A DNA stretch of 64,000 bases from Terriglobales bacterium. Lineage in GTDB: Bacteria > Acidobacteriota > Terriglobia > Terriglobales > Acidobacteriaceae. The notes under the pieces were generated by a model, which had not been told where the DNA came from, made no database searches, and saw only the letters and a program-made list of their open reading frames with translations. The stretch covers positions 1-64,000 of the forward strand of contig DASSIZ010000014.1 in assembly GCA_035691485.1 (NCBI GenBank). Direction: 5' to 3'. Positions 22,012 through 35,492 of this stretch are shown piece by piece (position 1 is the stretch's first letter; every line of letters starts with the position of its first letter). A program made the translations under genes and the position numbers.

Positions 22012-23532
22012 ATGCCATTAAAAACGCTATTCCTGAATCCTCCTTCGTTCGAAAATTTCGACGGTGGCGCCGGATCCCGGTGGCCGGCTACCCGGGAGAT
22101 TGAGTCTTACTGGTATCCGGTGTGGCTGGCGTACCCGACAGGGATGCTGGAAGGGGCTCGACTACTGGATGCGCCTCCGCACCACATTTCGGCAGAAGAG
22201 ACGATCCGGATCGCCAAGGATTATGAATTCCTGGTCCTGTTCACCAGCACTCCCGGATTTCCCGGCGACATAAAGCTGGCCGAGGCGATCAAGACAGCGA
22301 ATCCGAAAATCAGGATTGCCTTCGTGGGGCCGCATGTATCAGTGCTGCCGGAGAAGAGCCTGAACGAGGCGAAATACGTTGATTTCGTGGCGCGCAAGGA
22401 ATTTGACTACGCCGTCACCGATTTTGCCAAGGGCAAGCCGCTGGAGGAAATTCCGGGAATTTCCTACCGCAAGAACGGCAAGGTGGTGCATAACCCCGAA
22501 GGGCCGCAGATCAGCGACCTCGATGCCCTGCCGAACGTTACCGAGGTCTACAAGCGCGATTTAGACGTGCGGCGTTACAACGTCCCATTCCTGCTGCATC
22601 CGTTTGTTTCGCTGTACACGACGCGCGGGTGTCCCGCGCAATGTACCTTCTGCCTTTGGCCACAGACGCTGAGTGGACATCCGTGGCGCAAGCGTTCCAC
22701 CGACGCGGTGGCGCGTGAGATGGCGCAGGCCAAGGAATATTGGCCCTACGTCAAGGAATTCTTCTTCGACGACGATACGTTCAACATCCAGAAGGCGCGG
22801 ACGATTGAGCTGTGCGAGAAGCTGAAGCCGCTGAAACTGACCTGGTCGTGCACCTCGCGGGTGACCACGGACTACGACACGCTGAAAGCGATGAAAGAGG
22901 CCGGGTGTCGCCTGTTGATCGTGGGATTTGAATCCGGGGACCAGCAGATTCTGAAGAACATCAAGAAGGGCGCCACGCTGGAGCGGGCGCGGCAGTTCAC
23001 CAAGGACTGTCACAAGCTGGGGCTGGTAATCCACGGAGATTTCATTCTCGGCCTACCGGGGGAAACTCGCGAGACCATCCGCCGCACCATCGATTTCGCG
23101 AAAGAGTTGGACGTTGAAACCATCCAGGTTTCCGTTGCGCACGCTTACCCGGGGACGGAGTTGTACGACTTCGCCCTGAGCAACGGCTTTTTGGCGAACC
23201 GGGAGATGGTGGATGCCGGCGGGCACCAGCTGGCGCATATCGAATATCCGGGGCTGCCGGCGGAAGAAATCATTGGGGCAGTGCATCGTTTCTACGACGA
23301 ATACTATTTCCGTCCGAAGGCGGTGTTCCGGATCGTGAAAAAGGCGTTTTTCAATTCCGAGGAACGCAAACGGCTCTACCATGAAGCCAAAGGCTTCCTG
23401 AAAGTTCGTGCCAATCGCAACCGCTGGGTGAAACAGCAGAGGCAGAAGCCAGTTGCACCCCCAGCGCCGCCATCAGGAGGCGAACCGGTTTCTGAGAGGG
23501 AGCCGTCGGTGGTGGAACCCGCCAACGCCTGA
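22012..23532 (+). CDS. hpnJ: Hopanoid-associated B12-binding radical SAM protein HpnJ
   Basis: The 506-residue protein has an N-terminal cobalamin-binding-like domain (about 1-150) and a radical SAM domain with the cluster ligands Cys207, Cys211 and Cys214 (R-G-C-P-A-Q-C-T-F-C). The following L-W-P-Q-T-L-S-G-H segment is characteristic of HpnJ. In Burkholderia, HpnJ is needed to make the cyclitol-ether head group of extended hopanoids. Its usual partners HpnI and HpnK are not in this window. A Pro/Glu-rich tail of about 35 residues extends past the conserved part. Two small membrane proteins follow closely. Confidence 0.85.
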   Translation: MPLKTLFLNPPSFENFDGGAGSRWPATREIESYWYPVWLAYPTGMLEGARLLDAPPHHISAEETIRIAKDYEFLVLFTSTPGFPGDIKLAEAIKTANPKIRIAFVGPHVSVLPEKSLNEAKYVDFVARKEFDYAVTDFAKGKPLEEIPGISYRKNGKVVHNPEGPQISDLDALPNVTEVYKRDLDVRRYNVPFLLHPFVSLYTTRGCPAQCTFCLWPQTLSGHPWRKRSTDAVAREMAQAKEYWPYVKEFFFDDDTFNIQKARTIELCEKLKPLKLTWSCTSRVTTDYDTLKAMKEAGCRLLIVGFESGDQQILKNIKKGATLERARQFTKDCHKLGLVIHGDFILGLPGETRETIRRTIDFAKELDVETIQVSVAHAYPGTELYDFALSNGFLANREMVDAGGHQLAHIEYPGLPAEEIIGAVHRFYDEYYFRPKAVFRIVKKAFFNSEERKRLYHEAKGFLKVRANRNRWVKQQRQKPVAPPAPPSGGEPVSEREPSVVEPANA

Positions 23533-23544
23533 GATCGACCTTTT

Positions 23545-23967
23545 GTGAACTTCCGTGAGAAAGCCACCCTGGCCGGGGTGGTGTTATTTGGCGCTTGCGG
23601 CGATGTCGCGCTGTCACGCGGCATGAAAGCCGTGGGAACTCTCTCGCTGAGCCACTGGACCGGGGCCATCCACGCCATCTTCACACCCTGGGTGGGGGCG
23701 GGAATCATTCTCCTGCTGCTGTTCTTCGTCAGCTATCTCAGTTCCCTTTCGTTTGCGGATCTCACCTACGTTCTTCCTGCTACTGCGGTCGGCTACATCC
23801 TGATGGCGCTGATGGCCAAGTTCTTCCTGCATGAAAACATTTCGCCCTGGCGCTGGGCGGGAATTGCCTTGATCGCGTTAGGAGTTGGATTTGTGACAGC
23901 AGGGCCAGCCAAGACGGCGACTGCACGCGGGGCACAACCGTCACCGCCAGCGGCAGGAACCGCGTGA
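23545..23967 (+). CDS. Small DMT-superfamily (EamA/SMR-like) membrane protein, subunit 1
   Basis: This 140-residue protein, starting at GTG, has four predicted membrane helices, the size of half an EamA transporter. A motif C-G-D-V-A-L-S-R-G-M in the first helix is repeated in related form in the next gene (A-G-D-V-L-T-S-L-A-M). It lies 12 bases after hpnJ and overlaps the next gene by four bases (GTGA). The pair resembles ArnE/ArnF, which flip a lipid-linked sugar, so translocation of a hopanoid or of a head-group precursor is a reasonable inference but unproven. Confidence 0.75.
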   Translation: MNFREKATLAGVVLFGACGDVALSRGMKAVGTLSLSHWTGAIHAIFTPWVGAGIILLLLFFVSYLSSLSFADLTYVLPATAVGYILMALMAKFFLHENISPWRWAGIALIALGVGFVTAGPAKTATARGAQPSPPAAGTA

Positions 23968-24347
23968 CCGGCCTGCACTATACCTGGGGCAGCATCCTGG
24001 CGGTGGTGATATTTTCGACCGCCGGCGACGTGCTGACATCGCTGGCAATGAAGCAAAGCGGCGATGTAGGAAATACCTTTAAAACAACAGGTTTAGCAAA
24101 TACAATTAAAGTTGTACTTGGTAATCCGACGCTGTGGATCGGAATCGCATTCATGGCGTGCGCATTCTTTTCCCTCCTGTTCGCTCTTTCCTGGGCGGAC
24201 GTCAGCCTGGTGGCGCCGGCGTCCGCTTCCCTGACGTTTATCGCGAATGCAATCGTCGCCAAAATTTTTTTGCGCGAACACGTGGACGGCCGCCGATGGC
24301 TGGCTGCCATTCTGGTAGCTGCGGGCGTGGCGTTGGTGGCGAGGTAG
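23964..24347 (+). CDS. Small DMT-superfamily (EamA/SMR-like) membrane protein, subunit 2
   Basis: This 127-residue protein has four predicted membrane helices and starts at a GTG inside the stop of its partner. Helix 4 ends in W-L-A-A-I-L-V-A-A-G-V-A-L-V, the typical closing helix of EamA domains. As both subunits are related but not identical, a heterodimer with opposite topologies is likely. It converges on hpnE with only 11 bases between the stops. Several AT-rich codons at 24070-24130 stand out from the surrounding GC-rich sequence. Confidence 0.75.
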   Translation: MTGLHYTWGSILAVVIFSTAGDVLTSLAMKQSGDVGNTFKTTGLANTIKVVLGNPTLWIGIAFMACAFFSLLFALSWADVSLVAPASASLTFIANAIVAKIFLREHVDGRRWLAAILVAAGVALVAR

Positions 24348-24358
24348 CGGCTAGTGGT

Positions 24359-25759
24359 TCAGTGTTGCTTGAAGAATCGCATTAAGCCCCGCGCCGGCAA
24401 ATCTTCGACAAGGAACTTTTGGGGAGTCCCCGCGGCGCGGGTAAGCGCTTCGGCGGCAAGATAGCCGCTTCGTACGGCACCCTCCATGGTGGCGGGCCAG
24501 CCGGTGGCGGTCCAATCGCCGGCAAGAAAAACCCGCGGCCAGGGGGATGCCTGCGGCGGGCGGTGGGCGTCGGCGCCCGGCAGGGGCGCGTAAGTGGCGT
24601 TCACCTCCTTGATGACTGTTGATTTCAGCAGCTTGGAATTTCTGGCTTCGGGAAAGAATTCCGACAGTTCCCGCAAAGCGAGATCAAGAATTTCTGGCCG
24701 GGGTTTGTCCACCAGAGTCTTGGACGCGCTGATCACCAGCTCCACGTAGCTTCCGCCGGACTTTTCGGTTTCCTGGAAACTGCTCTTGTGGAACATCCAT
24801 TGGATGGTGCGATCGAGAAGCACAGCATGTGGCAGGTCGGTGATCTGGCGATCGAACCAAAGATGGATGCCGGTGATCGGCGAAGTCTGGAAGCGATCGA
24901 GCATGCAGCGCAGCGGGGCAGCGGCGGCATCGTCCGGCGGCAACATGGACGCGAGCACGTTGAAAGGCACGGCCAGCACGGCATAATCGAACGTGCGGTC
25001 GTGGCCTGCGAAACAGATGCGGACCGCGGCGGACTCGGGGCGAAAGGCATCGGCGGCAGCGCGGAGTTGAAGGCTTCCGCCCTGGCGCTGGATGTAATCG
25101 CCGGCAATGGCGTAAAGATCGGACAAAGGCAGGGCAGGCAGGCCAAGCGCGCCGGCTTCGGTCGACTTCAGGAAGCTTTCACGAAACACCTGGGCAGCGT
25201 AGCGGGACGACATGCGGTCAAGATCTTCATTCAGAGCGCTTACCAGCACCACTCGCCAGAAGCGATCAATCGCACGCTGAGTTTGGCCATGCGCGCGAAG
25301 CCAGGTCAGGAAGGGTGCGCTGTTGTCATCGGGTAAGCGGCCAGCAAGAGCCAGCATGGCGCGAGCGATTGCCAATTTGTCGGAGAAGGATAGGTACGAC
25401 GCACCGAGGAACGATGTCGCGCTGTGAAATGGCGCGGGCAGAAGACCGGGCTCGATCACGGAACGGTGGCCGCCCGGTTCGATGAAGGTTAGTTGGCGGT
25501 ACCAGCGGATCTTTTCTTCGGCGCCGACGCGGCGATAGAGGTCGATGAGATTGGTGCAGCAGCCAAGCAGGACATGCTGGCAATTATCGACGACTTCGCC
25601 GGTTCCGGGATGCTGATAGGAAGAAGCGCGTCCGCCGAGATAAGGACGCCGCTCGAGCAGCGAGACGTTGTATCCAGCACCGGCCAGGGCACAGCCGGCG
25701 GCCAGGCCAGCCAGACCACCTCCCACAATCGCCACCGACGGAGATTCCTGGGCGGTCAT
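24359..25759 (-). CDS. hpnE: Hydroxysqualene dehydroxylase HpnE
   Basis: The 466-residue flavoprotein belongs to the amine oxidase/phytoene desaturase superfamily and removes the hydroxyl group of hydroxysqualene to give squalene. The FAD-binding dinucleotide fold is at residues 9-40 (V-G-G-G-L-A-G-L-A-A-G, then L-L-E-R-R), followed by L-G-G-R-A-S-S. The C-terminal FAD motif is F-L-A-G-D-W-T-A-T-G-W-P-A-T-M-E-G-A. An open frame extends upstream into hpnD; the Met before T-A-Q-E-S is chosen because it gives the compact N-terminus and a four-base ATGA overlap with the hpnD stop. Confidence 0.92.
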   Translation of the reverse strand: MTAQESPSVAIVGGGLAGLAAGCALAGAGYNVSLLERRPYLGGRASSYQHPGTGEVVDNCQHVLLGCCTNLIDLYRRVGAEEKIRWYRQLTFIEPGGHRSVIEPGLLPAPFHSATSFLGASYLSFSDKLAIARAMLALAGRLPDDNSAPFLTWLRAHGQTQRAIDRFWRVVLVSALNEDLDRMSSRYAAQVFRESFLKSTEAGALGLPALPLSDLYAIAGDYIQRQGGSLQLRAAADAFRPESAAVRICFAGHDRTFDYAVLAVPFNVLASMLPPDDAAAAPLRCMLDRFQTSPITGIHLWFDRQITDLPHAVLLDRTIQWMFHKSSFQETEKSGGSYVELVISASKTLVDKPRPEILDLALRELSEFFPEARNSKLLKSTVIKEVNATYAPLPGADAHRPPQASPWPRVFLAGDWTATGWPATMEGAVRSGYLAAEALTRAAGTPQKFLVEDLPARGLMRFFKQH

Positions 25760-26700
25760 TCCTTGATCCGCCGCCACAGGCCCTTGGATAAAATGCGGAG
25801 CTTTTCGTAGGTGGTAAGGCGCACGCGCTCGGTGAAGACGTCGTAGTTGCGGCCGGCAATTTTTTCCAGAAGACGGCTGTAGATCTCGATCAAGGTCCAA
25901 AGCGCCGGCCGGCTGTCTTCGTCAATATAGGTAATCAACTGGCGTCCGGAACCGTAGAACTCGCGGGCACGGTCGGCTGCCATCTCCAGCAAGGGGCGGA
26001 AGGCCGCAGGGTTGGGAGAGCGAAACATCGAGGGTCCGATGGCGCAGCGGTCGAGGTCTTCTTGCGGCAGATAGATGCGGCCCATGGCGGCATCTTCCTT
26101 CACATCGCGAATGATATTGGTGAGTTGGAAGGCGATGCCGCAGCGTTCGGCAAGAATTTCGGCCGCCGGGTCGCGATAGCCAAAAACTCGAATGCAAACC
26201 AGGCCGACAACGGACGCAACGTGGTAGCAGTAGTTATAGAGGTCGTCGAAGCTGCGGTACATCAATTGGGGATTCCCGGGCACGGGCTGCGGGAGTTCGG
26301 GGCGAGGCACGTCCATGGCGGTGCCGTAAACCAGTGTTTCCAGCAGGTCGATGGGAATCTTGAAGCGGCGCTGGCTGTCGGCGGTTGCCATCAGAACGGG
26401 ATCGTCGGTGCGCTCGCCGCCAACTACGCGGTGCAGAGATTCGAGCCACTCATTGAGTTTCAGTCGCTTTTCGTCAGGCGTGAGTTGCGGGTCGTCGCTG
26501 ATGTCGTCGGCGTAGCGCATGAAGGCATAGATGGCGCTCAGGCCGTCGCGCTTGCGGCGCGGCAAGACGAGAAAACCGTAATAGAAATTACGCGCCGACT
26601 TGCGCGTGATGTGGCGACAGACTCCGTAGGCGGTGCGCAACTGAAGTGACGCGACGCGTGGCGCACTCGGAGCCGGGCCGCTTTGGGTAAGGACAGTCAT
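25756..26700 (-). CDS. hpnD: Presqualene diphosphate synthase HpnD
   Basis: The 314-residue prenyl-condensing enzyme joins two farnesyl diphosphates to presqualene diphosphate. Both Asp-rich metal sites are present: D-D-I-S-D around 65-69 and D199-V-K-E-D203 in N-I-I-R-D-V-K-E-D. The long insert after Y-G-T-A-M-D fits HpnD. It overlaps hpnE by four bases. HpnC lies 125 bases upstream in the same direction, so the three genes form the HpnC/D/E squalene route used in place of eukaryote-type squalene synthase. Confidence 0.93.
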   Translation of the reverse strand: MTVLTQSGPAPSAPRVASLQLRTAYGVCRHITRKSARNFYYGFLVLPRRKRDGLSAIYAFMRYADDISDDPQLTPDEKRLKLNEWLESLHRVVGGERTDDPVLMATADSQRRFKIPIDLLETLVYGTAMDVPRPELPQPVPGNPQLMYRSFDDLYNYCYHVASVVGLVCIRVFGYRDPAAEILAERCGIAFQLTNIIRDVKEDAAMGRIYLPQEDLDRCAIGPSMFRSPNPAAFRPLLEMAADRAREFYGSGRQLITYIDEDSRPALWTLIEIYSRLLEKIAGRNYDVFTERVRLTTYEKLRILSKGLWRRIKE

Positions 26701-26825: not shown

Positions 26826-27851
26826 TCAGTTCCCGGCGATCTCCTTTCCACTGAAAATTTTCCCCAATGCGGCTTTGGCGACCAAGGCCAGTTTGCGCGA
26901 CTTAGAGATGGCCGGCCGCCGCGTCAGGACGTCGAAGTGCTGGCGCTCGATCGCATTCAAAATTTCCTGGCCGCCGCGCGTAAACAGTTCGATATCCACC
27001 GCCAGCTCTTTGTCCACTTTGCGCGCCAACGGCAATCCGCGCTCAAACCATTCACGAGCGCGGTCGACTTCAAATTTCATCATCCGGCGAAACTCAGGAG
27101 TGGGGCGGCGCGCGGCGATATCCTGCTCCTTGACGCCATAACGCTGCATGTCGTCGAGCGGGATGTAGATGCGGCCCTTGCCGTAGTCGGGCCAGATGTC
27201 CTGCCAGAAATTGGCCAGCTGCAGCGCGGTGCAGGTGAAGTCAGAGAGCTGCTGGCGTTCGTCGTCACTGTAACCGCAGGTGTAGAGCACTAGGCGCCCG
27301 ACGGGATTGGCGGAATATTGGCAGTACGCCAGCACATCGTCGAACGTCGGGTAGCGGCCGGTACGCTGGTCCTGGCGAAAAGCCTTCAGCAAGTCAGCAA
27401 AAGGCTGGCGCGGGATGTTACAGGCGCGAATGGTTTCGCGCAGGGCGATGAACACAGGATGCCGCGGACGAGCCGGATTTTTCGACGGCACCGCCGGCTG
27501 CAACTGCTCCGCCTTCTTGTTGAGGATGTCGAGCGGAAAAGGCTGGACCAGGCTGAGATAAGTGGCATTCAGCTCCTCTTCCCATTCATCCAGCAGGCGC
27601 AATGCTTCGCGCGGATCCCCGACTTCGTCGCCGAGGTCATCGGAAATCCGGCAATACGCATAGACGCTATAAAAATGCGGGCGCACGCGCTCGGGCAGGA
27701 ACCAGGTGGCGACCGAAAAATTCTCGTAATGGCGGCGCGCCAGGCGCTCGCAATACGCGAGAGCTTCCCCAAGAGACGGCGCCTGCGCGGGAATAGCGTA
27801 TTCCGGCGGGAGGCCTGAAAAGGGCACGGAATTGGGGGAGGCCGTCACCAT
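26826..27851 (-). CDS. hpnC: Hydroxysqualene synthase HpnC
   Basis: This squalene/phytoene-synthase-family protein of 341 residues converts presqualene diphosphate to hydroxysqualene. It has D-D-L-G-D-E at the first metal site and N-F-W-Q-D-I-W-P-D at the second, the latter diverging from the D-x3-D of true synthases as is usual in HpnC. An in-frame GTG five codons upstream is an alternative start; the ATG is preferred because the GTG lies in the adjoining repeat. A 177-base gap with an inverted repeat separates it from the upstream dehydrogenase, so it may have its own promoter. Confidence 0.92.
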   Translation of the reverse strand: MVTASPNSVPFSGLPPEYAIPAQAPSLGEALAYCERLARRHYENFSVATWFLPERVRPHFYSVYAYCRISDDLGDEVGDPREALRLLDEWEEELNATYLSLVQPFPLDILNKKAEQLQPAVPSKNPARPRHPVFIALRETIRACNIPRQPFADLLKAFRQDQRTGRYPTFDDVLAYCQYSANPVGRLVLYTCGYSDDERQQLSDFTCTALQLANFWQDIWPDYGKGRIYIPLDDMQRYGVKEQDIAARRPTPEFRRMMKFEVDRAREWFERGLPLARKVDKELAVDIELFTRGGQEILNAIERQHFDVLTRRPAISKSRKLALVAKAALGKIFSGKEIAGN

Positions 27852-27856
27852 CTCAA

Positions 27857-28029
27857 TTTTAACCACAGTGCAACCGGCTCACCACCAAGGACACGAAGTA
27901 CACAAAGGAAAGATTGGGGCAATTTCTGATCAGGTCATGAAAACGGCCCATCAAGCCACAACCCGAATCCAGAACCAAATGGCGACACGAAGGCCCTTGT
28001 GTTCCTTCGTGTCCTTTGTGATTAAAGGT
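27857..28029. repeat. Intergenic inverted repeat within the hopanoid gene run
   Basis: The unit CACCAAGGACACGAAG (27884 on) is matched in reverse complement by CTTCGTGTCCTTTGTG near 28005-28020, with about 20 of 26 positions pairing over the wider arms. It is flanked by A-rich stretches. It may fold in the mRNA between the dehydrogenase and hpnC and so separate their expression. Confidence 0.6.
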
Positions 28030-29078
28030 CAGTGGCCCGGAATAATGGCGGTCTTGATGTCGCCGTTCCGATTGAGCATGTGGCGTAGGACCTGCTGCAG
28101 GCGCGACAAGGGCGCCTCGCCGGTGATGTAGTCCGCGCCACGAATCTTGCGTTCGGCGATGAGGGCGAATGCTTTGCGCACGGTTTCCGGCGTGTGATGG
28201 AAGGTCGCCTTGAGCGCGATCTCGGAATAGTGCAGGCGATTGGTATCGAGCGAGACCTTGGTGCCGCTGGCACACCCGCCAAAGAAATTAACCGTCCCTC
28301 CCTTGCGAACCATGTCGATGGACCATTCCCAGGCTTCCGGGCGGCCAACGGCTTCAATGACAACGTCGGCACCGCGGCGATCTGGAGTGAGGGCGCGCAC
28401 AGCATCGACCGCATCCTGGACCTGCGTGATCTGCACCACGTCATCTGCGCCGAGACGCTTAGCGGCATTGACCTGGGAATCGCGCTTGGCGACTGCGATC
28501 ACATTGCAACCCTTCAGCTTGGCAACCTGAACGAACATGAGACCGATAGGACCGCCGCCAATCACGACCACAGTATCGCCGATTTCCAAGCTGGTTTCGT
28601 GAAGTCCGCGCAGGACGCAGGCCAGCGGCTCGACCATGGCCGCTTCTTCGTACGTAACATTGCTGGGAACGGCGAGCATGTTGCTTTCCACGATGCGGCG
28701 CGGAATCTTGATGTACTCGGCGTAGGCGCCGTTGTTGAAGAGCAGGTCTTCGCAAAGATTTTCCTGGTGCTTGGAGCAATAGAAACACATCTGGCAAGGC
28801 GCGGAATTCAGCGCCACCACGCGCATGCCGGTGCGGAAACCCTTGACCCCAGGTCCAACCTCCTCGATGACGCCGGCCAATTCATGGCCGAACAAGGCCG
28901 GCGGGACAATCATGCGAGCATGATATCCGCGCTGGTATACCTTGAGATCGGTGCCACAGGTCAACGCTACCTGGACCTTGATCAGGACCTCACCGTGACC
29001 GACACGGGGTATGGGAACGCGTTCAATCTTCACGTCCTCTTTACCGTAGAGGACCGCTGCAGTCATGTGTCCGTTCAC
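28029..29078 (-). CDS. Zinc-dependent MDR alcohol/polyol dehydrogenase, copy 1
   Basis: The 349-residue protein is a medium-chain dehydrogenase of the sorbitol/threonine-dehydrogenase type. The catalytic zinc ligands are Cys41, His65-Glu66 and probably Glu150. The structural zinc site is Cys95, Cys98, Cys101 and Cys109. The NAD(P)-binding loop is G-G-G-P-I-G-L near 174-180. It lies 39 bases after a second dehydrogenase and within the hopanoid run. Dehydrogenases are not a named part of the hopanoid pathway. A plausible job is reduction of the open-chain aldehyde of ribosylhopane to bacteriohopanetetrol, which is an inference from context only. Confidence 0.85.
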   Translation of the reverse strand: MNGHMTAAVLYGKEDVKIERVPIPRVGHGEVLIKVQVALTCGTDLKVYQRGYHARMIVPPALFGHELAGVIEEVGPGVKGFRTGMRVVALNSAPCQMCFYCSKHQENLCEDLLFNNGAYAEYIKIPRRIVESNMLAVPSNVTYEEAAMVEPLACVLRGLHETSLEIGDTVVVIGGGPIGLMFVQVAKLKGCNVIAVAKRDSQVNAAKRLGADDVVQITQVQDAVDAVRALTPDRRGADVVIEAVGRPEAWEWSIDMVRKGGTVNFFGGCASGTKVSLDTNRLHYSEIALKATFHHTPETVRKAFALIAERKIRGADYITGEAPLSRLQQVLRHMLNRNGDIKTAIIPGH

Positions 29079-29117
29079 TATCTTTCTTTCCTTCCCTCGT
29101 ACAGCTCACGGAACGAT

Positions 29118-30245
29118 TTATGAACCCGGTGATCCTGGTTCCAAAGCCGGCTGGATGACGACTTTCATCGATTCTGGCCGGGGATGAGCTGCTAAGTTCA
29201 ATGCCTCCAAAGCCCTGGAGAGGGGGAACCGGTGAGTGATGAGCCGCTCCAAGTCCATTTCGCGGCGGCAAACAAAACTCACAGCCTCCTGTTGCAGGTC
29301 AATGGAAGCGCTATAGGAGCCCAAAAGACTCTTCTCATCGACACAGATTGTGGCGGGATCAATGACGGCCTCTCCACGAACCGTCTGGGCAAATAACAGA
29401 ACCCTGCCACCCGGGCGCGCGGCCTCGATAGCCGCGCGTATCAAAGAAGTCCCGGCTACCGCCAGAACCACGGCGTCAGCCCCACGTCCTTCCGTCCATT
29501 GGCACACGGCTTTGACCGCATCTGCCTGCGACGCGTCAATGGATCTGCCTAGGCCAAAACCATTAGCTATTGTAAGCCTCTGGGGGAACAAATCGGAAGT
29601 GAATACATTTGCACCTTCTCGTTGGGCCAATACTCCCAACATGATACCGATGGGACCCTGTCCCATCACCAGCACGGTCTCACCCGGTTGGAGGCGCAAA
29701 GTCTGAATGCCTTTCATGCAGGTATTGATCGGTTCGATGAAGGAGGCCTGCTCGAAGGAGACCTCCGGCGGTAGTTTGACTACTCCGCCTCGGGCAACAA
29801 TCCAGTCCATGACCCGCACATATTCGGAAAAGCCGCCCCCACTGGGCTCGTACCCAGCCGTACAGCCCACCTGCTTGTAAACCGGGCACTGGGCAAAGAC
29901 CTTATGGCGGCAGTAAAAGCATTCCCCGCACGGGATATGGTGGAACACGCTGACCCGGTCGCCGGGCGAAAACTTGGTCACCCCGGCGCCGGTTTCGACC
30001 ACCACACCGGCGGTTTCATGGCCGAAGATGCGGGGCGCAGAGTGGGAACCGGTGCCGATTTTTTTCAAGTCCGTGCCGCAAATACCGCAGGTATGAACCT
30101 TGATCAGCAATTCTCCCGATCCGATCCTGGGCACGGGCACCTGTTCGAGGCGAACGTCGTCCCTGCCGTGATAGACGGCGGCGCGCATGGTGGACGGGAT
30201 GGAAACCGCACCGCTGCGAGACCCGGTCTGAGTGGCAGTTGACAT
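29118..30245 (-). CDS. Zinc-dependent MDR alcohol/polyol dehydrogenase, copy 2
   Basis: The 375-residue MDR dehydrogenase has catalytic zinc ligands Cys56, His76 and Glu77 and structural zinc ligands Cys106, Cys109, Cys112 and Cys120. The nucleotide loop reads G-Q-G-P-I-G-I-M. It differs clearly from its neighbour (different N-terminus, different substrate-loop sequence), so the two are not a recent duplication. The ATG overlaps the TGA of hpnG by one base (TGATG), which ties it to adenosylhopane processing. A TTG one codon upstream is possible. The exact substrate is unknown. Confidence 0.85.
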   Translation of the reverse strand: MSTATQTGSRSGAVSIPSTMRAAVYHGRDDVRLEQVPVPRIGSGELLIKVHTCGICGTDLKKIGTGSHSAPRIFGHETAGVVVETGAGVTKFSPGDRVSVFHHIPCGECFYCRHKVFAQCPVYKQVGCTAGYEPSGGGFSEYVRVMDWIVARGGVVKLPPEVSFEQASFIEPINTCMKGIQTLRLQPGETVLVMGQGPIGIMLGVLAQREGANVFTSDLFPQRLTIANGFGLGRSIDASQADAVKAVCQWTEGRGADAVVLAVAGTSLIRAAIEAARPGGRVLLFAQTVRGEAVIDPATICVDEKSLLGSYSASIDLQQEAVSFVCRREMDLERLITHRFPLSRALEALNLAAHPRPESMKVVIQPALEPGSPGS

Positions 30246-30961
30246 CAATTCGTCCTACCCAATAGCTCTGGCTGTGGTCTAGTGGCTTTCTCCTCTATGA
30301 GATGAGCCAGAGCACGGCAAAGTTCCCGAGAAGCTCGCGCGGTATTACGAGCGAGATGGAACAAGGTTGGCCAAGTTGCCGGCCGCACCGCACACGCGGC
30401 AACAAAGCGCGCCATGCGGATGCGTCCGCGAGGATCAATGCAGCCTTCGAAGGAAGGCATGGGGAAGCCTGCTTCCTCGGAGATGGCTTTGACAGCGAGA
30501 AACGGGCAATCACGCTGTCCGGCGACAAGAGCGATGGCGGCAGCTTCCATGTCCACCGCGTCAGCGCCAAAAGAACCCGTGATGCGCCGCTTGGCGTCGG
30601 CGTCCAGGACCGAGGAAGCGCTGACTAAAACGCCGTCCGTGCCGGGAGCGTTGAAGCGCACGCCCGTTGCGAGATCGACGACTGTAGCCGGATGAAAAAT
30701 CTGTCCCACCTTCAGCTTCGTATTCAATGCTCCCGCCAAACCCGCGGAGACGAGGAGGGCGGGCCGCTCCGAATCCAGAACGGCCACCGCAGCCTGTCGC
30801 GCCAGCGAACTGCCGATCCCGGAACAAATGACAATCGCGTTGCCCTGAACAAAGACCGGAAATACGGCTTGGGCCGTAATCAGGTCGCGTCGCGCCCAGC
30901 CGCGCACGAGCGGCCGGACCTCGCGTTCCATGGCGGCGACAATGGCAACGTCAATGGACAT
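30245..30961 (-). CDS. hpnG: Adenosylhopane nucleosidase HpnG
   Basis: The protein (238 residues from this Met, 240 from an ATG two codons earlier) is a nucleoside-phosphorylase-like enzyme related to MTA/SAH nucleosidase. It removes adenine from adenosylhopane to give ribosylhopane or its phosphate. The fold is seen in V-A-I-V-A-A-M-E-R-E-V at the start, C-S-G-I-G-S phosphate-loop-like residues, S-A-G-L-A-G-A-L and D-A-V-D-M-E-A-A-A, with the catalytic Met-Glu pair. Its start overlaps the end of hpnA by about 11 bases and its end overlaps the dehydrogenase. Confidence 0.9.
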   Translation of the reverse strand: MSIDVAIVAAMEREVRPLVRGWARRDLITAQAVFPVFVQGNAIVICSGIGSSLARQAAVAVLDSERPALLVSAGLAGALNTKLKVGQIFHPATVVDLATGVRFNAPGTDGVLVSASSVLDADAKRRITGSFGADAVDMEAAAIALVAGQRDCPFLAVKAISEEAGFPMPSFEGCIDPRGRIRMARFVAACAVRPATWPTLFHLARNTARASRELCRALAHLIEEKATRPQPELLGRTN

Positions 30962-31949
30962 AACCATTCGCCTGAAACCATTGGGCGGCTCGGCGCAAGG
31001 CGTCTTCTACGGGTACCAAGTTGAAACCCAATTGGCACTGCGCTTTCTCGGAAGATACCCACATTTTTTTTCGACCCATGCGGACCGCATCCAGGGTGAC
31101 GCGGGGCTCACGATGGAGAAAACGTCCGCTCACCACGGTATCGCCCACGCCGGCAGCGAGCGCGACCACGTAGGGCAGGCGCACCCGGGGCGACGCCAGA
31201 CCGGTAATGGCCGCCAGCTTGTCCAGGATCTGCTTTAAGGTCAGGTTCTCGCCGCCAAGAATGTAACGCTCTCCCGGCGCGCCTTTTTCCAGCGCGAGAA
31301 GATGTCCGCGGGCGACTTCGTGCACATCCACCAGATTCAACCCTGTATCCACGTAAGCCGGGAACTTCCGTTTCAGAAAATCGAGAATAATGCGGCCGGT
31401 CGGCGTCGGCTTCAGATCGCGCTCGCCGACGGGCGTGGTCGGATTCACTACCACCACATCGCCGCCGGACTTGCCTGCCTCGATCGCTACTTGTTCCGCG
31501 ATGAATTTGGAGCGCTTGTAGTGCCCGATCATGTCATCCAGACCGACCGGGGAACGTTCGTCGGCCGGATGACCATTGCCGGTGAAGCCCATGGTCGCCA
31601 CGGTGGAGCAGTACACAATGCGCCGCACGCCGGCCTGACGCGCCGCATCAATCAATCCCCGCGTCCCCTCGACATTGCAGCGGTACATCGACTGCACGTC
31701 GGCGGCATCGCGTGTCCAGAGCCGGTAATCGGCGGCGACATGAAAAACCACCTCACAACCGGAAACGGCCGTGCGCAACGAATCCGGCTCCCTGAGGTCT
31801 CCGATAACGCGTTCGGCGGGCAAATCGTCGATGTTGCTGGTCGGGCTGGACTCCCGGACTAACAGGCGCAAATCGGCTCCGTGGAGAGCGAGTTCACGCG
31901 CCACGTGGCTTCCGACAAAGCCGGTCGCTCCTGTAACAAAAGCTTTCAT
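30951..31949 (-). CDS. hpnA: Hopanoid-associated NAD-dependent sugar epimerase HpnA
   Basis: The 332-residue extended short-chain dehydrogenase has the G-A-T-G-F-V-G-S-H nucleotide motif at 7-15, a catalytic Tyr144-x3-Lys148 (Y-K-R-S-K) and C-S-T-V-A-T-M as the Ser strand. The name HpnA is used for this family in hopanoid clusters; its reaction on the hopanoid side chain is not settled. It overlaps hpnG and follows the unnamed 144-residue gene by 11 bases, so all are in one operon. Confidence 0.9.
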   Translation of the reverse strand: MKAFVTGATGFVGSHVARELALHGADLRLLVRESSPTSNIDDLPAERVIGDLREPDSLRTAVSGCEVVFHVAADYRLWTRDAADVQSMYRCNVEGTRGLIDAARQAGVRRIVYCSTVATMGFTGNGHPADERSPVGLDDMIGHYKRSKFIAEQVAIEAGKSGGDVVVVNPTTPVGERDLKPTPTGRIILDFLKRKFPAYVDTGLNLVDVHEVARGHLLALEKGAPGERYILGGENLTLKQILDKLAAITGLASPRVRLPYVVALAAGVGDTVVSGRFLHREPRVTLDAVRMGRKKMWVSSEKAQCQLGFNLVPVEDALRRAAQWFQANGYVH

Positions 31950-31960
31950 GAATCAAGCCG

Positions 31961-32395
31961 CTACTCGAGTTTCTCGGGTTGCAACGAGATACTCTTCTCT
32001 CCGGCTGCCTTACGCTGCCAGTACTGCTGGACCCAGGCCTCCCAACTGTTTCCTGCCGCCATGTCGCGGCCGGTAAAGGCCAGGGCTGCAATGTCGGCGT
32101 AGGAAACGGAGGTCTTGCCGCTACCGTCTTTTGGCAGCAGCCGCACCGCGGATTCGGCCAAGGTCCGGCCGGTGCGACGATCGAAAATGTAGCCTTCGAT
32201 CTGGGTGCCATCCTTGCGCGTGATCAGCACGTCGCCACGGTAATCAAAAGCGCGCTCCAGGGCTTGGCGTAACTCTTCTTCGCTGGCCAACTCCGGCACC
32301 CAGCCTTCGAGGCGTTCGCGGGCACCGCGTTCGACAACCTCGAGCGCGTCCGGATCCGGCGTCCCAGCTCGATGGCCAGCTTCGCGGCCGGTCAC
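31961..32395 (-). CDS. Unnamed 144-residue protein of the hopanoid operon
   Basis: I do not recognise an assigned family. The GTG start overlaps the hpnH stop by four bases (GTGA), a strong sign of a real, coupled gene. The same frame is open further upstream, but there it only shadows hpnH. The first 45 residues are charged and helical. Residues 50-120 look like a small beta barrel (Y-R-G-D-V-L-I-T-R-K-D-G-T then I-E-G-Y-I-F-D), ending V-S-Y-A-D-I-A-A-L-A-F. The C-terminus is amphipathic with W-E-A-W-V-Q-Q-Y-W. There is no signal peptide. Its place between HpnH and HpnA suggests an accessory role in side-chain assembly. Confidence 0.78.
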   Translation of the reverse strand: MTGREAGHRAGTPDPDALEVVERGARERLEGWVPELASEEELRQALERAFDYRGDVLITRKDGTQIEGYIFDRRTGRTLAESAVRLLPKDGSGKTSVSYADIAALAFTGRDMAAGNSWEAWVQQYWQRKAAGEKSISLQPEKLE

Positions 32396-33513
32396 ACCCG
32401 TGTCTCCTGGGGAGCGTTGCTGTCGATCTGCACCAGGGGATTGAAGGCATGCACCGGGCGAACTTCCTCCTCGAGAAGCTCGAGCGCCTGGGAATCTTCG
32501 TAGCTGCTGGAGAGGGTGGCGCGCACGGTGTCCCAGAACCCGCGCCAGGAGCTGAAGGTATCGTTCACGGCAGAGGCTTCGTAGCCGCTGTGCACCATGC
32601 AATTGGCGCACTTGGGATTGCCGGATTCGGTGCCGTAGCGCTCCCACTCCGTGCTTTGCATAAGCTCGGCGAAGGTGTCGGCGTAGCCGTCCTGCAGCAG
32701 GTAACAGGGTTTCTGCCAGCCAAAGACGTTGAAGGTAGGCATGCCCCAGGGCGTGCACGGGTAATCGCGTTTGCCCATCAGAAATTCGAGAAAAAGCGGC
32801 GACATGTTGAAGCGCCAGCTCTCTTTGCGATTGGAAAGAATGCCGCGGAAGAGCCGGCGAGTGCGAGCTCGGCCGAGGAAATGACTCTGGTCCGGGGCCT
32901 TGTCATAGGAGTAGCCGGGCGAGAGCATCATGCCTTCGACACCGAGCTTCATCATCTCGTCGAAAAAAGCGCGCACGCTCTTGGGATCTGCTCCGTCGAA
33001 CAAGGTGGTGTTGGTGGTGACGCGGAAGCCGCGTGCCAGCGCCTCCTTGATTCCCTCGATGGCTTTTTCGTAGCCGCCCTCCAGGCATACCGAAAAATCA
33101 TGGTGTTCCCGCTGGCCGTCCACATGGACAGAGAAGGTCAGGAATTTGCTGGGCTTGAAGAGGTCGATTTTCTGCTTGAGCAGCAGCGCATTGGTGCAGA
33201 GATAAATGTACTTCTTCCGGTCCACCAGGCCGGCGACGATCTCGCAAATCTGCGGGTGCAGCAGCGGCTCACCGCCGGGTATGGCGATGGTCGGCGCGCC
33301 GCATTCTTCCACCGCGCGGAAGCATTCTTCGGGGCTCAACTGCATCTTGAGCACGTGGCCGGGATACTGGATCTTGCCACACCCGGCGCACGCCAGGTTG
33401 CAGCGGAACAGCGGTTCCAGCATGAGGACGAGCGGGTAGCGCTTGCGTCCCTTCAGCTTCTGCTTAAGGACGTAGCTGGCAACCGTCCACATCTGGGATA
33501 CCGGTACAGGCAT
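32392..33513 (-). CDS. hpnH: Adenosylhopane synthase HpnH (radical SAM)
   Basis: The 373-residue radical SAM enzyme adds 5'-deoxyadenosine to diploptene, forming adenosylhopane, the first C35 hopanoid. The cluster-binding cysteines are Cys38, Cys42 and Cys45 (C-N-L-A-C-A-G-C). The G-G-E-P-L-L SAM motif follows. A late Cys-containing segment (C-A-N-C-M-V-H-S-G-Y) is typical of HpnH. The start is the Met before P-V-P-V-S-Q-M, which overlaps the shc TAA by one base (TAATG). Confidence 0.95.
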   Translation of the reverse strand: MPVPVSQMWTVASYVLKQKLKGRKRYPLVLMLEPLFRCNLACAGCGKIQYPGHVLKMQLSPEECFRAVEECGAPTIAIPGGEPLLHPQICEIVAGLVDRKKYIYLCTNALLLKQKIDLFKPSKFLTFSVHVDGQREHHDFSVCLEGGYEKAIEGIKEALARGFRVTTNTTLFDGADPKSVRAFFDEMMKLGVEGMMLSPGYSYDKAPDQSHFLGRARTRRLFRGILSNRKESWRFNMSPLFLEFLMGKRDYPCTPWGMPTFNVFGWQKPCYLLQDGYADTFAELMQSTEWERYGTESGNPKCANCMVHSGYEASAVNDTFSSWRGFWDTVRATLSSSYEDSQALELLEEEVRPVHAFNPLVQIDSNAPQETRV

Positions 33514-35492
33514 TAACCTTCTCCGAATTCTGGGCGCGGCGCGGAATTCCGGGCCCGCGGGACGGTGGCGGCTGCATCTGCGGCAAGCATGACTTTTTGA
33601 TAGGTCGCCAATGCGAGCAGCGGAAAATATTCGGCGTACATGTGGTACTTCAAGTAAAAAACCTTGGGGAACCCGGTTCCTGTATCCCAGGGCTCGCACC
33701 AGGAACCATCGCGTTCCTGCGTCTTCAGCAGGTAAGCGATTCCCTTGTGCACCGAGTCGCTACGCGTATCACCGACAGCCAGCAAGCCAAGAATGGCCCA
33801 TGCAGTCTGCGACGCCGTACTGGGGCCGATTCCGCGAGTGACGGGATCGTGATACGACCAGACGCTTTCCCCCCAGCCGCCGTCGGGATTCTGCACCATT
33901 CGTAGCCACTCGGCAGCCTGCTGTACGTAAGGCTCGTTGTGATCGATGCCGATGGCTTCCAGACCGCGAAGCACAAGATGGGTCCCGTAAATGTAATTGC
34001 ACCCCCAGCGGCCGAACCAGCAACCATCGGGCTCCTGCTCGCCTAACAAGAAATCGATGGCGCGCTGCACGCGTTTGTCCTGCCGGGTGTAACCGTGGGC
34101 AGCCAGCATCTCGAGCACGCGGCCGGTGATGTCAGCGGTCGCGGGATCGAGCATGGCGTTGTGGTCGGCGAAGGGAATGTACTGGAACACCAGCTTGTCG
34201 TTGTCCTTGTCAAAAGACGCCCAACCGCCATTGCGGCACTGCATGGAAAAGACCCAATCGATGGCGCGCTTCACCGACTCGTGCTGGTAGCGCTCATTGG
34301 GATGATCCACGTGATCGAGCGCGAGACAAACCTGGGCGGTGTCGTCCACGTCGGGATAAAACTCGTTGTTAAATTCAAAATACCAACCGGCCGGCTGCCC
34401 CTCGCGGTTTTTTACCGACCAGTCACCCTTATGCGTGACCTGTTTCTTCAGGACCCAATCGGCGGAAGCGACCATGCGTGGGTCTTGCGGGCTGACGCCG
34501 CTCTCGCCCAGCGCGTGGAGGGCGTACGCCGTGTCCCACACCGGCGACTTGCAAGGCTGCATGCGGAACGTGGTCTCTTCCTCGATGCCAAGCGATTCAA
34601 ATTCATCCATGGCGCGAATGAACTGGGGATCGTCGACCGAATAACCGAGGCAGCGCAGGGCGATGATGGAGTTCATCATGGCCGGATAGATGGCGCCGAG
34701 GCCGTCGCTCATCTCAAACCGCTCCAGCATCCACTCCTCGGCCGCGCGCAGAGCGACGGAACGCAACGGCCGGATGTGAAAACGTTCGAGCCAGTGCGTC
34801 ATGCGGTCGAGAAAGAGAAAGACGTTGCGCCAGCTGATGATTTTCGAGTCCCAATGCAGGTACAGATTGGAGTTGTCGCGCCCCCCGGGAAACAGCTCCT
34901 CAATGCCCATCTCCGGCGGAATTTTTTTGTAAGGCTTCTTGGCGTAGACGATGGCGAGCGGAATAAAGATGGCGCGCGACCAGGAAGAAATTTCGTAGAT
35001 GTTGAACCAGAACCACTTAGGAAAGAGGACGATTTCCGGGGGGATTGCCGGGACGGCGAACCAGTCGTACTGTCCAAAGAAGCAGAGATAAATCTTGGTG
35101 TAGGTATTAGCGCAAGTGGGCCCGCCGAGCTCATGGATCTTCCGGCGGGCGCGCTGCAGCGGAGAATCTTCGGCGCTGTAGCCGGCCAGCTTGAGCGCGA
35201 AGTATGCCTTGACCGAGGCGCTGATGTCAGACGGCCCGCCGGGAAAAATGGGCCAGCCGCCGTCCTCGTTCTGGTGATCGAGAATCCAGCGCGCAGCCTT
35301 GGCAAACTTTTTCTGATCGCCGGTGCCGAGCAGGGTGTGCATGGCGATGTAATCGGACTCGAGAGTGGAGTCGGCCTCGAGTTCGCCGCACCAATAGCCG
35401 TCCTCATGCTGGATCGAGAACAGATACTTTCGCGCCGCCTCGACGGCGGCAGCGACGCGGCTCAACATGTCGTCGATTTTGCCAAACTTCAT
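33513..35492 (-). CDS. shc: Squalene-hopene cyclase
   Basis: The 659-residue membrane-associated cyclase turns squalene into hopene/hopanol. The proton-donating D-x-D-D motif is Asp381-Val-Asp383-Asp384 followed by T-A. Several QW repeats are seen (for example D-G-G-W-G-E and D-G-S-W near the C-terminus, E-D-G-G-W-P near residue 76). The length is normal. It follows ispH by 44 bases and overlaps hpnH, so it opens the hopanoid-specific part of the run. Confidence 0.96.
   Translation of the reverse strand: MKFGKIDDMLSRVAAAVEAARKYLFSIQHEDGYWCGELEADSTLESDYIAMHTLLGTGDQKKFAKAARWILDHQNEDGGWPIFPGGPSDISASVKAYFALKLAGYSAEDSPLQRARRKIHELGGPTCANTYTKIYLCFFGQYDWFAVPAIPPEIVLFPKWFWFNIYEISSWSRAIFIPLAIVYAKKPYKKIPPEMGIEELFPGGRDNSNLYLHWDSKIISWRNVFLFLDRMTHWLERFHIRPLRSVALRAAEEWMLERFEMSDGLGAIYPAMMNSIIALRCLGYSVDDPQFIRAMDEFESLGIEEETTFRMQPCKSPVWDTAYALHALGESGVSPQDPRMVASADWVLKKQVTHKGDWSVKNREGQPAGWYFEFNNEFYPDVDDTAQVCLALDHVDHPNERYQHESVKRAIDWVFSMQCRNGGWASFDKDNDKLVFQYIPFADHNAMLDPATADITGRVLEMLAAHGYTRQDKRVQRAIDFLLGEQEPDGCWFGRWGCNYIYGTHLVLRGLEAIGIDHNEPYVQQAAEWLRMVQNPDGGWGESVWSYHDPVTRGIGPSTASQTAWAILGLLAVGDTRSDSVHKGIAYLLKTQERDGSWCEPWDTGTGFPKVFYLKYHMYAEYFPLLALATYQKVMLAADAAATVPRARNSAPRPEFGEG

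Follow-up and report, generated by a model that had tools for sequence, protein, structure and literature searches.

Which enzyme reduces ribosylhopane to bacteriohopanetetrol (BHT), the compound from which a major class of bacterial biomarker lipids derives? The question is raised by a hopanoid cluster in a stretch of 64,000 nucleotides from a Terriglobales bacterium (Acidobacteriaceae; contig DASSIZ010000014.1), hereafter the window. An earlier note on this DNA had described two distinct zinc-dependent medium-chain dehydrogenases/reductases (MDR) between hpnG and hpnC, and had proposed the one coupled to HpnG as a natural candidate for the BHT-forming reductase. Both genes are present, on the minus strand. 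MDR1 (29118..30245) starts with ATG, encodes 375 amino acids and has an NAD-type cofactor motif; MDR2 (28029..29078) starts with GTG, encodes 349 amino acids and has an NADP-type motif. The note's remark that this reductase is not firmly assigned was still accurate in 2025, when the BHT-forming enzyme was described as not yet established in the portion of a paper available to us (PMC12583986). The open literature searched, with most subscription journals outside the search, contained no paper assigning the step to a gene in the portions available. We tentatively propose that MDR1 and MDR2 work together as a single functional unit, a redox pair particular to this lineage that serves the C35 side chain of hopanoids and in which MDR2 would be the likelier ribosylhopane reductase. 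The analysis shows the zinc and fold family of the proteins, the near-obligate pairing of their genes, the linkage to the cluster in two sampled phyla and the split between the cofactor motifs; the substrates, direction and products are inferred.

MDR1 and MDR2 are full members of the zinc-dependent MDR superfamily. The Pfam domains ADH_N and ADH_zinc_N score over the gathering threshold in each, and the two proteins are ~35% identical. Neither reaches an NCBIfam equivalog cut-off. The best match of MDR1 is IolM (167 bits against a cut-off of 450) and that of MDR2 is Tdh (178 against 458); threonine 3-dehydrogenase, IolM, galactitol-1-phosphate 5-dehydrogenase, idonate 5-dehydrogenase and other named MDR equivalogs all stay under their curated cut-offs. 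The NCBIfam name 'HpnZ_proposed' was discarded as a hopanoid hint, being described as phosphonate catabolism and scoring 110 of 328 bits. Among 139 distinct MDR1 sequences, C56, H76 and E171, presumably the catalytic zinc ligands, are found in all 139, and the four structural cysteines in 138. Among 127 distinct MDR2 sequences, H65 and E150 occur in all 127, C41 in 125 and the four structural cysteines in all 127. These residues are assigned as zinc-binding as is usual for the family, and the glutamate ligand is as in sorbitol dehydrogenases. Two MDR2 sequences carry aspartate for the catalytic cysteine, among them L076:10377-11423 (ALTDGTD). AlphaFold models of both proteins (pLDDT 91) most resemble the dehydrogenases for sorbitol, ketose, butanediol and threonine, with 21–30% identity. 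The polyol zinc MDRs sorbitol dehydrogenase (1pl6), ketose reductase (1e3j) and L-threonine 3-dehydrogenase (2dfv) share with MDR1 and MDR2 the fold, the catalytic Cys/His/Glu and the four structural cysteines, but identity is only 25–29% in these three comparisons.

The two proteins differ at the cofactor site. In MDRs, an acid where the second Rossmann strand ends generally points to NAD, and the lack of one to NADP. Counted over the 12 commonest motifs of each protein, MDR1 has aspartate at this position (123 of 139 sequences), whereas MDR2 has no acid (e.g. VVKR, GRR) in 110 of the 112 sequences with such motifs. The MDR2 site also aligns with that of the NADP(H) ketose reductase 1e3j. As read from these motifs, MDR1 looks NAD-type and MDR2 NADP-type.

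We searched 61 relatives for MDR1, together with an even draw of 297 genomes from the Acidobacteriota with a completeness of at least 85%. Orthologs occur in 39 and 49 of these, respectively, with eight shared (80 genomes in all), and the surroundings were examined at 73 of the 80 loci (G141, G149, G158, G190, G206, G273 and G346 were left out). The cluster gene upstream of MDR1 is hpnG in 58 loci and hpnA in 12; one locus meets a contig edge and two have no cluster gene within 1.5 kb. Downstream, MDR2 follows in 57 loci, one is cut by a contig edge and 15 have no cluster gene within 1.5 kb. This hpnG-MDR1-MDR2 arrangement is far from chance. Linkage with hpnG in related genomes, which the earlier note had named beforehand as a test of its idea, is conserved, beside hpnG or hpnA and beside hpnCDE. 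The MDR pair belongs to the hopanoid cluster, and its synteny with hpn genes is kept beyond the genus.

The 15 loci lacking an adjoining MDR2 belong to genus codes g32, g51 and g52; among relatives that bear names, Edaphobacter and Granulicella (L201, L202, L208) share this layout. MDR2 was found elsewhere in the genome in all 15 cases. In the four split genomes that were fetched (G103, G257, G114, G273) it heads an MDR2-hpnC-hpnD-hpnE run (L257, L258, L261, L262), so the cluster has been broken between MDR1 and MDR2, into hpnA-hpnG-MDR1 and MDR2-hpnCDE, with both genes retained. A wider contig scan covered 80 loci of at least 558 confirmed stretches; some of its contigs are common to the 297-genome draw, and its query was atypical (family f47), which favours pairs away from hpn genes. 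In that scan the upstream neighbour of MDR1 is hpnG in 53 loci, hpnA in six, a contig edge in five and none in 16; on the other side, MDR2 comes next in 74 loci, one meets an edge and five have no neighbour.

In the window, the hpnG stop codon (TGA, 30247-30245) shares its A with the first base of the MDR1 ATG, producing the one-base overlap TGATG (30243..30247, minus strand) that the earlier note had pointed out. Spacing at the 58 HpnG neighbours was taken up to the MDR1 profile match as an approximation of the start codon. It is an exact one-base overlap in just eight, a longer overlap in 10, 1–60 nt in 32, 61–499 nt in five and more than 500 nt in three. The overlap was accordingly dropped as a sign of special coupling between HpnG and MDR1.

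Co-occurrence was counted in the 297-genome draw with thresholds of E<=1e-70 for MDR1, E<=1e-90 for HpnH and E<=1e-100 for MDR2. MDR1 was found in 49 genomes, HpnH in 80 and MDR2 in 51 (of 60 with a match at E<=1e-80). MDR1 and MDR2 are found together in 49 genomes; MDR2 occurs alone in two and MDR1 alone in none. MDR1 and HpnH occur together in 46 genomes, MDR1 alone in three, HpnH alone in 34 and neither in 214. HpnH is thus present in 46 of the 49 MDR1 genomes compared with 34 of the 248 without MDR1; a Fisher test on these counts ignores relatedness. Two of the three MDR1 genomes lacking an HpnH match have other pathway genes in the locus (HpnA, HpnD and Shc in G159; HpnA and HpnD in G282), and in the third alone, G261, neither Shc nor HpnH was found. 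G261 is also the only one of the 49 with neither HpnH nor an adjoining hpn gene (at 12 of the 49 loci, HpnH is known just from the genome search or the locus was not fetched). Among the 61 relatives, MDR1 and HpnH are both missing from family f2 (14 genomes), five genomes of f4/f5/f9/f10 and G010.

The pair also occurs in Armatimonadota, in the class Chthonomonadia, to which Chthonomonadales belong. MDR1 is present in 18 of 31 Chthonomonadia genomes. In 17 of these 18 loci the tracked gene that comes next on that strand is MDR2, the contig being cut in the other, and hpnC-D-E follows the pair in six. MDR1-MDR2-hpnC-D-E, the order at L299 (genome G368), is likewise seen in one UBP4 genome (L158). 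In a tree built without an outgroup and including the Armatimonadota copies, MDR1 and MDR2 each form one clade, both with support 100. Within each, the Armatimonadota copies mostly group together; L298 and L299 are placed inconsistently. The pair is accordingly old and largely co-inherited.

The linkage of these MDR genes to hpn genes is already in print. A 2017 study of acidobacterial hopanoids (PMC5462960), cited throughout from the passages of it available to us, names the gene after hpnA-hpnG 'ug1', of unknown function. A second gene, 'ug2', lies before hpnC and is often annotated as a Zn-binding alcohol dehydrogenase of ~350 amino acids; it is reported in all SD1 and SD3 acidobacteria and absent from C. 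thermophilum, and another passage gives the SD3 cluster A without ug2. These genes share phylum and position with MDR1 and MDR2, and are matched here by position (ug1) or by position and description (ug2), not by locus tags. The passages mention no pairing, cofactor type, other phyla or ribosylhopane step in connection with ug1 and ug2. What the present analysis adds to them is that the pairing is obligate, that the cofactor motifs are split between the two proteins and that the pair recurs next to hpnCDE in a further phylum, along with the negative cases by which the interpretation is restricted.

Because the pair travels together inside the hopanoid clusters of many acidobacteria and some Armatimonadota, it probably acts on hopanoid membrane lipids. 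MDR1 and MDR2 would then be two old, co-inherited zinc dehydrogenases acting on the C35 side chain in this lineage. For MDR2, carbonyl reduction is most likely, and the best candidate reaction is that of the open-chain ribosylhopane aldehyde to BHT. MDR1 would most likely oxidise a hydroxyl of the side chain. An NADPH-type reductase kept together with an NAD-type dehydrogenase suggests a likeness to the sorbitol (polyol) pathway, and as in that pathway the two enzymes together could reduce, re-oxidise or epimerise the polyol. Provided that aldehyde reduction is a task of this pair in the first place, the split motifs would assign it to MDR2 and not to the gene that overlaps hpnG. The cell-free reduction described by Bodlenner in 2015 reportedly used NADPH. 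A more specific proposal is a two-enzyme relay in Acidobacteriota and Armatimonadota that reduces ribosylhopane to BHT and can also re-oxidise or epimerise a side-chain hydroxyl, possibly giving rise to BHT stereoisomers or keto-hopanoids. We regard this extended form as rather doubtful, and we know of no described hopanoid pathway that includes re-oxidation or epimerisation of a side-chain hydroxyl.

Several observations weigh against the proposed redox pair or against a simple reductase story, beginning with hopanoid genomes that lack the pair. MDR1 was not found in 34, and MDR2 not in 33, of the 80 hpnH genomes of the draw. The pair is therefore a lineage-specific solution and not a general bacterial ribosylhopane reductase, and MDR1 was rejected as a universal reductase. 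The HpnH surroundings of 22 MDR1-lacking genomes contain a shc-hpnH-hpnA-hpnG run in 12 and an MDR after hpnG in none; a weak MDR match lies upstream of shc in one (L117). For two of the 34 genomes, G011 and G313, the absence of MDR1 is uncertain, as contigs end near its expected place. G011 was set aside as a natural knock-out of hpnA, hpnG, MDR1 and MDR2 because its contig ends 2.2 kb past hpnH and its congener G214 has these genes side by side; one missing contig explains the joint loss. HpnA exceeds its cut-off in four tested MDR1-lacking genomes with HpnG-like matches (G105, G116, G143, G307) and in G056. The last of these (L245) keeps the run hpnA-hpnG-MDR2-hpnC, complete but for MDR1; a different MDR of this genome reaches 222 bits against the MDR1 profile, and the tree places it outside MDR1. 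The 12 loci with HpnA upstream constitute one family, f37, with the order hpnA-MDR1-MDR2-hpnD, or -hpnC in one, which speaks against a reductase translated with HpnG. Among Chthonomonadia, hpnH is present in 30 of 31 genomes, among them every one of the 13 that lack MDR1. Co-occurrence in this class therefore does not support a link, and presence or absence in Armatimonadota was discarded as a test of it. The assignment of cofactor types must be counted here as well, since it is read from motifs, and two MDR2 sequences do carry an acid at the site (LDKE).

Three of the MDR1-lacking hpnH genomes (G143, G168, G208) are, we assume, Chloracidobacterium-like. They contain a distant MDR2-like gene (46–47% identity) that falls outside the paired MDR2 group in the tree. 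Their lack of MDR1, in a genus for which BHT and BHT cyclitol ether are reported (PMC5462960), suggests a further point against a simple reductase story. In all, such distant MDR2-like genes (42–47% identity, E 1e-83 to 1e-94) are found in nine genomes of the draw beyond the 51 with MDR2; six of the nine have hpnH, and the Chloracidobacterium-like ones are among these six. In the tree, those of families f40 and f86 lie apart from the MDR1-paired MDR2 group, and the distant genes were therefore not counted as MDR2; genomes with such genes may still have an MDR2-type reductase. Examples from f40 (Chloracidobacterium-like) and f86 were observed at L259 and L260, and at L260 a second MDR follows directly, possibly forming an analogous pair.

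The reverse case is also seen, and likewise counts against the proposal. In seven genomes that carry the pair (those of L144, L146, L147, L148, L157 and L161, and G261) neither Shc nor HpnH was found. Their copies group in one clade together with that of G119, a genome in which Shc and HpnH are both present, and two Armatimonadota copies join this clade in the MDR2 tree. Where Shc is missing, the genes next to the pair, inspected by eye, pointed to no pathway in common. The pair is thus not confined to hopanoid-pathway genomes. The UBP4 genome is ambiguous: Shc, HpnH and HpnA were sought there and none was found, absences that one missing contig could explain. HpnH was similarly sought and not found in the genome of L299. 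In these two, squalene is perhaps used without hopanoid side chains, or the genomes are perhaps incomplete.

The earlier note's own suggestion was that MDR1, translated with HpnG, is a candidate for the ribosylhopane reductase and that MDR2 could act on another side-chain position or in reverse. The linkage behind this idea stands, with MDR1 directly after HpnG in 58 of 73 loci and remaining with hpnA-hpnG where clusters are split. However, the NAD-type motif is in the hpnG-overlapping MDR1 and the NADP-type motif in MDR2, which makes MDR2 the better reductase candidate; moreover, the pair stands beside HpnA when HpnG is elsewhere (f37), MDR2 and not MDR1 follows hpnG in G056, and the clade without Shc and HpnH keeps the pair. 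Together with the 34 hpnH genomes lacking MDR1, this makes MDR1 an improbable reductase, and leaves a BHT-forming role of the kind the note envisaged plausible for this lineage only. A stronger competitor is HpnA, a short-chain dehydrogenase/reductase (SDR), or some unlinked reductase, with the MDR pair editing the side chain afterwards by oxidation, epimerisation or a further branch. Like the MDR pair, HpnA is an oxidoreductase-family protein encoded with hpnG; unlike it, HpnA is an SDR and is present in genomes without MDR1, and the shc-hpnH-hpnA-hpnG runs of such genomes fit this explanation. HpnA was suggested for the BHT step in 2017, with the enzyme itself called unknown, but the same source gives some evidence that Burkholderia cenocepacia does not need hpnA for BHT and notes that Rhodopseudomonas lacks hpnA (PMC5462960, citing Schmerk 2015 and Welander 2012). 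On balance we consider reduction by HpnA or an unlinked enzyme unlikely, though it deserves to be taken seriously.

The pair might instead serve an earlier or different isoprenoid step, for example on a C15 or C30 alcohol near squalene. Outside Acidobacteriota the linkage observed is indeed with hpnC-D-E (six of 18 Armatimonadota loci, and UBP4), and the genomes of L299 and UBP4 gave no HpnH. Yet a single missing contig could take the shc-hpnH-hpnA run from such genomes, and HpnC, HpnD and HpnE account for squalene formation with no missing step known (PMC5462960), so an isoprenoid role seems very unlikely. That the pair acts on a soluble sugar or polyol and is a mere passenger in the operon would accommodate the seven genomes that retain it without Shc or HpnH, and the fetched flanks of L144-L148, L157 and L161, which hold no tracked hopanoid gene. 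It fits poorly with the draw, where G261 alone of 49 MDR1 genomes has neither HpnH nor an adjoining hpn gene, and with a linkage that outlasts cluster breakage and recurs in a second phylum; we give it little credence. The side-chain redox pair with MDR2 as candidate reductase supplies conserved enzymes that can be tested and predicts clearly that MDR2 with NADPH comes before MDR1; genomes with and without the pair offer a natural contrast within a single phylum. Should the pair edit side-chain stereochemistry instead, a gene pair would be linked to an isomer signal in sediments.

On the minus strand of the window the gene order is ispH, shc, hpnH, a small open reading frame (ORF), hpnA, hpnG, MDR1, MDR2, hpnC, hpnD, hpnE. 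Family cut-offs are exceeded by shc (squalene-hopene cyclase, 33513..35492, 759 bits), hpnH (adenosylhopane synthase, 32392..33513 with an approximate start, 540 bits), hpnA (SDR 'sugar epimerase', 30951..31949, 480.5 bits), hpnC (26826..27866, 333 bits) and hpnE (24359..25756, 488 bits). The hpnD gene (25756..26700) scores 234.6 bits, below its cut-off of 278.6. The divergent hpnG-like gene of the nucleoside phosphorylase family (30245..30967) scores 100.2 bits against a cut-off of 187.1, which was reached in none of 36 other genomes tested; weak HpnG matches also appear in seven of 14 control genomes. The name HpnG is therefore based on homology and synteny.

The small ORF between hpnH and hpnA (31961-32395, minus strand, ~145 amino acids) is present in 34 of 69 loci searched, the window included, and a longer ORF containing it has no Pfam match. 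Its position is that of 'ug3' in the 2017 passages (PMC5462960). Convergent with hpnE, the plus strand at 22012-24347 carries hpnJ and then two small genes with EamA-like matches just under the Pfam gathering score. The three genes occur together in 20 of 61 loci, counting the window, and the EamA-like two could form a transporter of some hopanoid product. Finally, the spacer between MDR2 and hpnC (27883-28020) contains a 16-nt inverted repeat, CACCAAGGACACGAAG / CTTCGTGTCCTTTGTG, with arms 106 nt apart. Within the window this motif is unique to that spacer, with up to two mismatches allowed.

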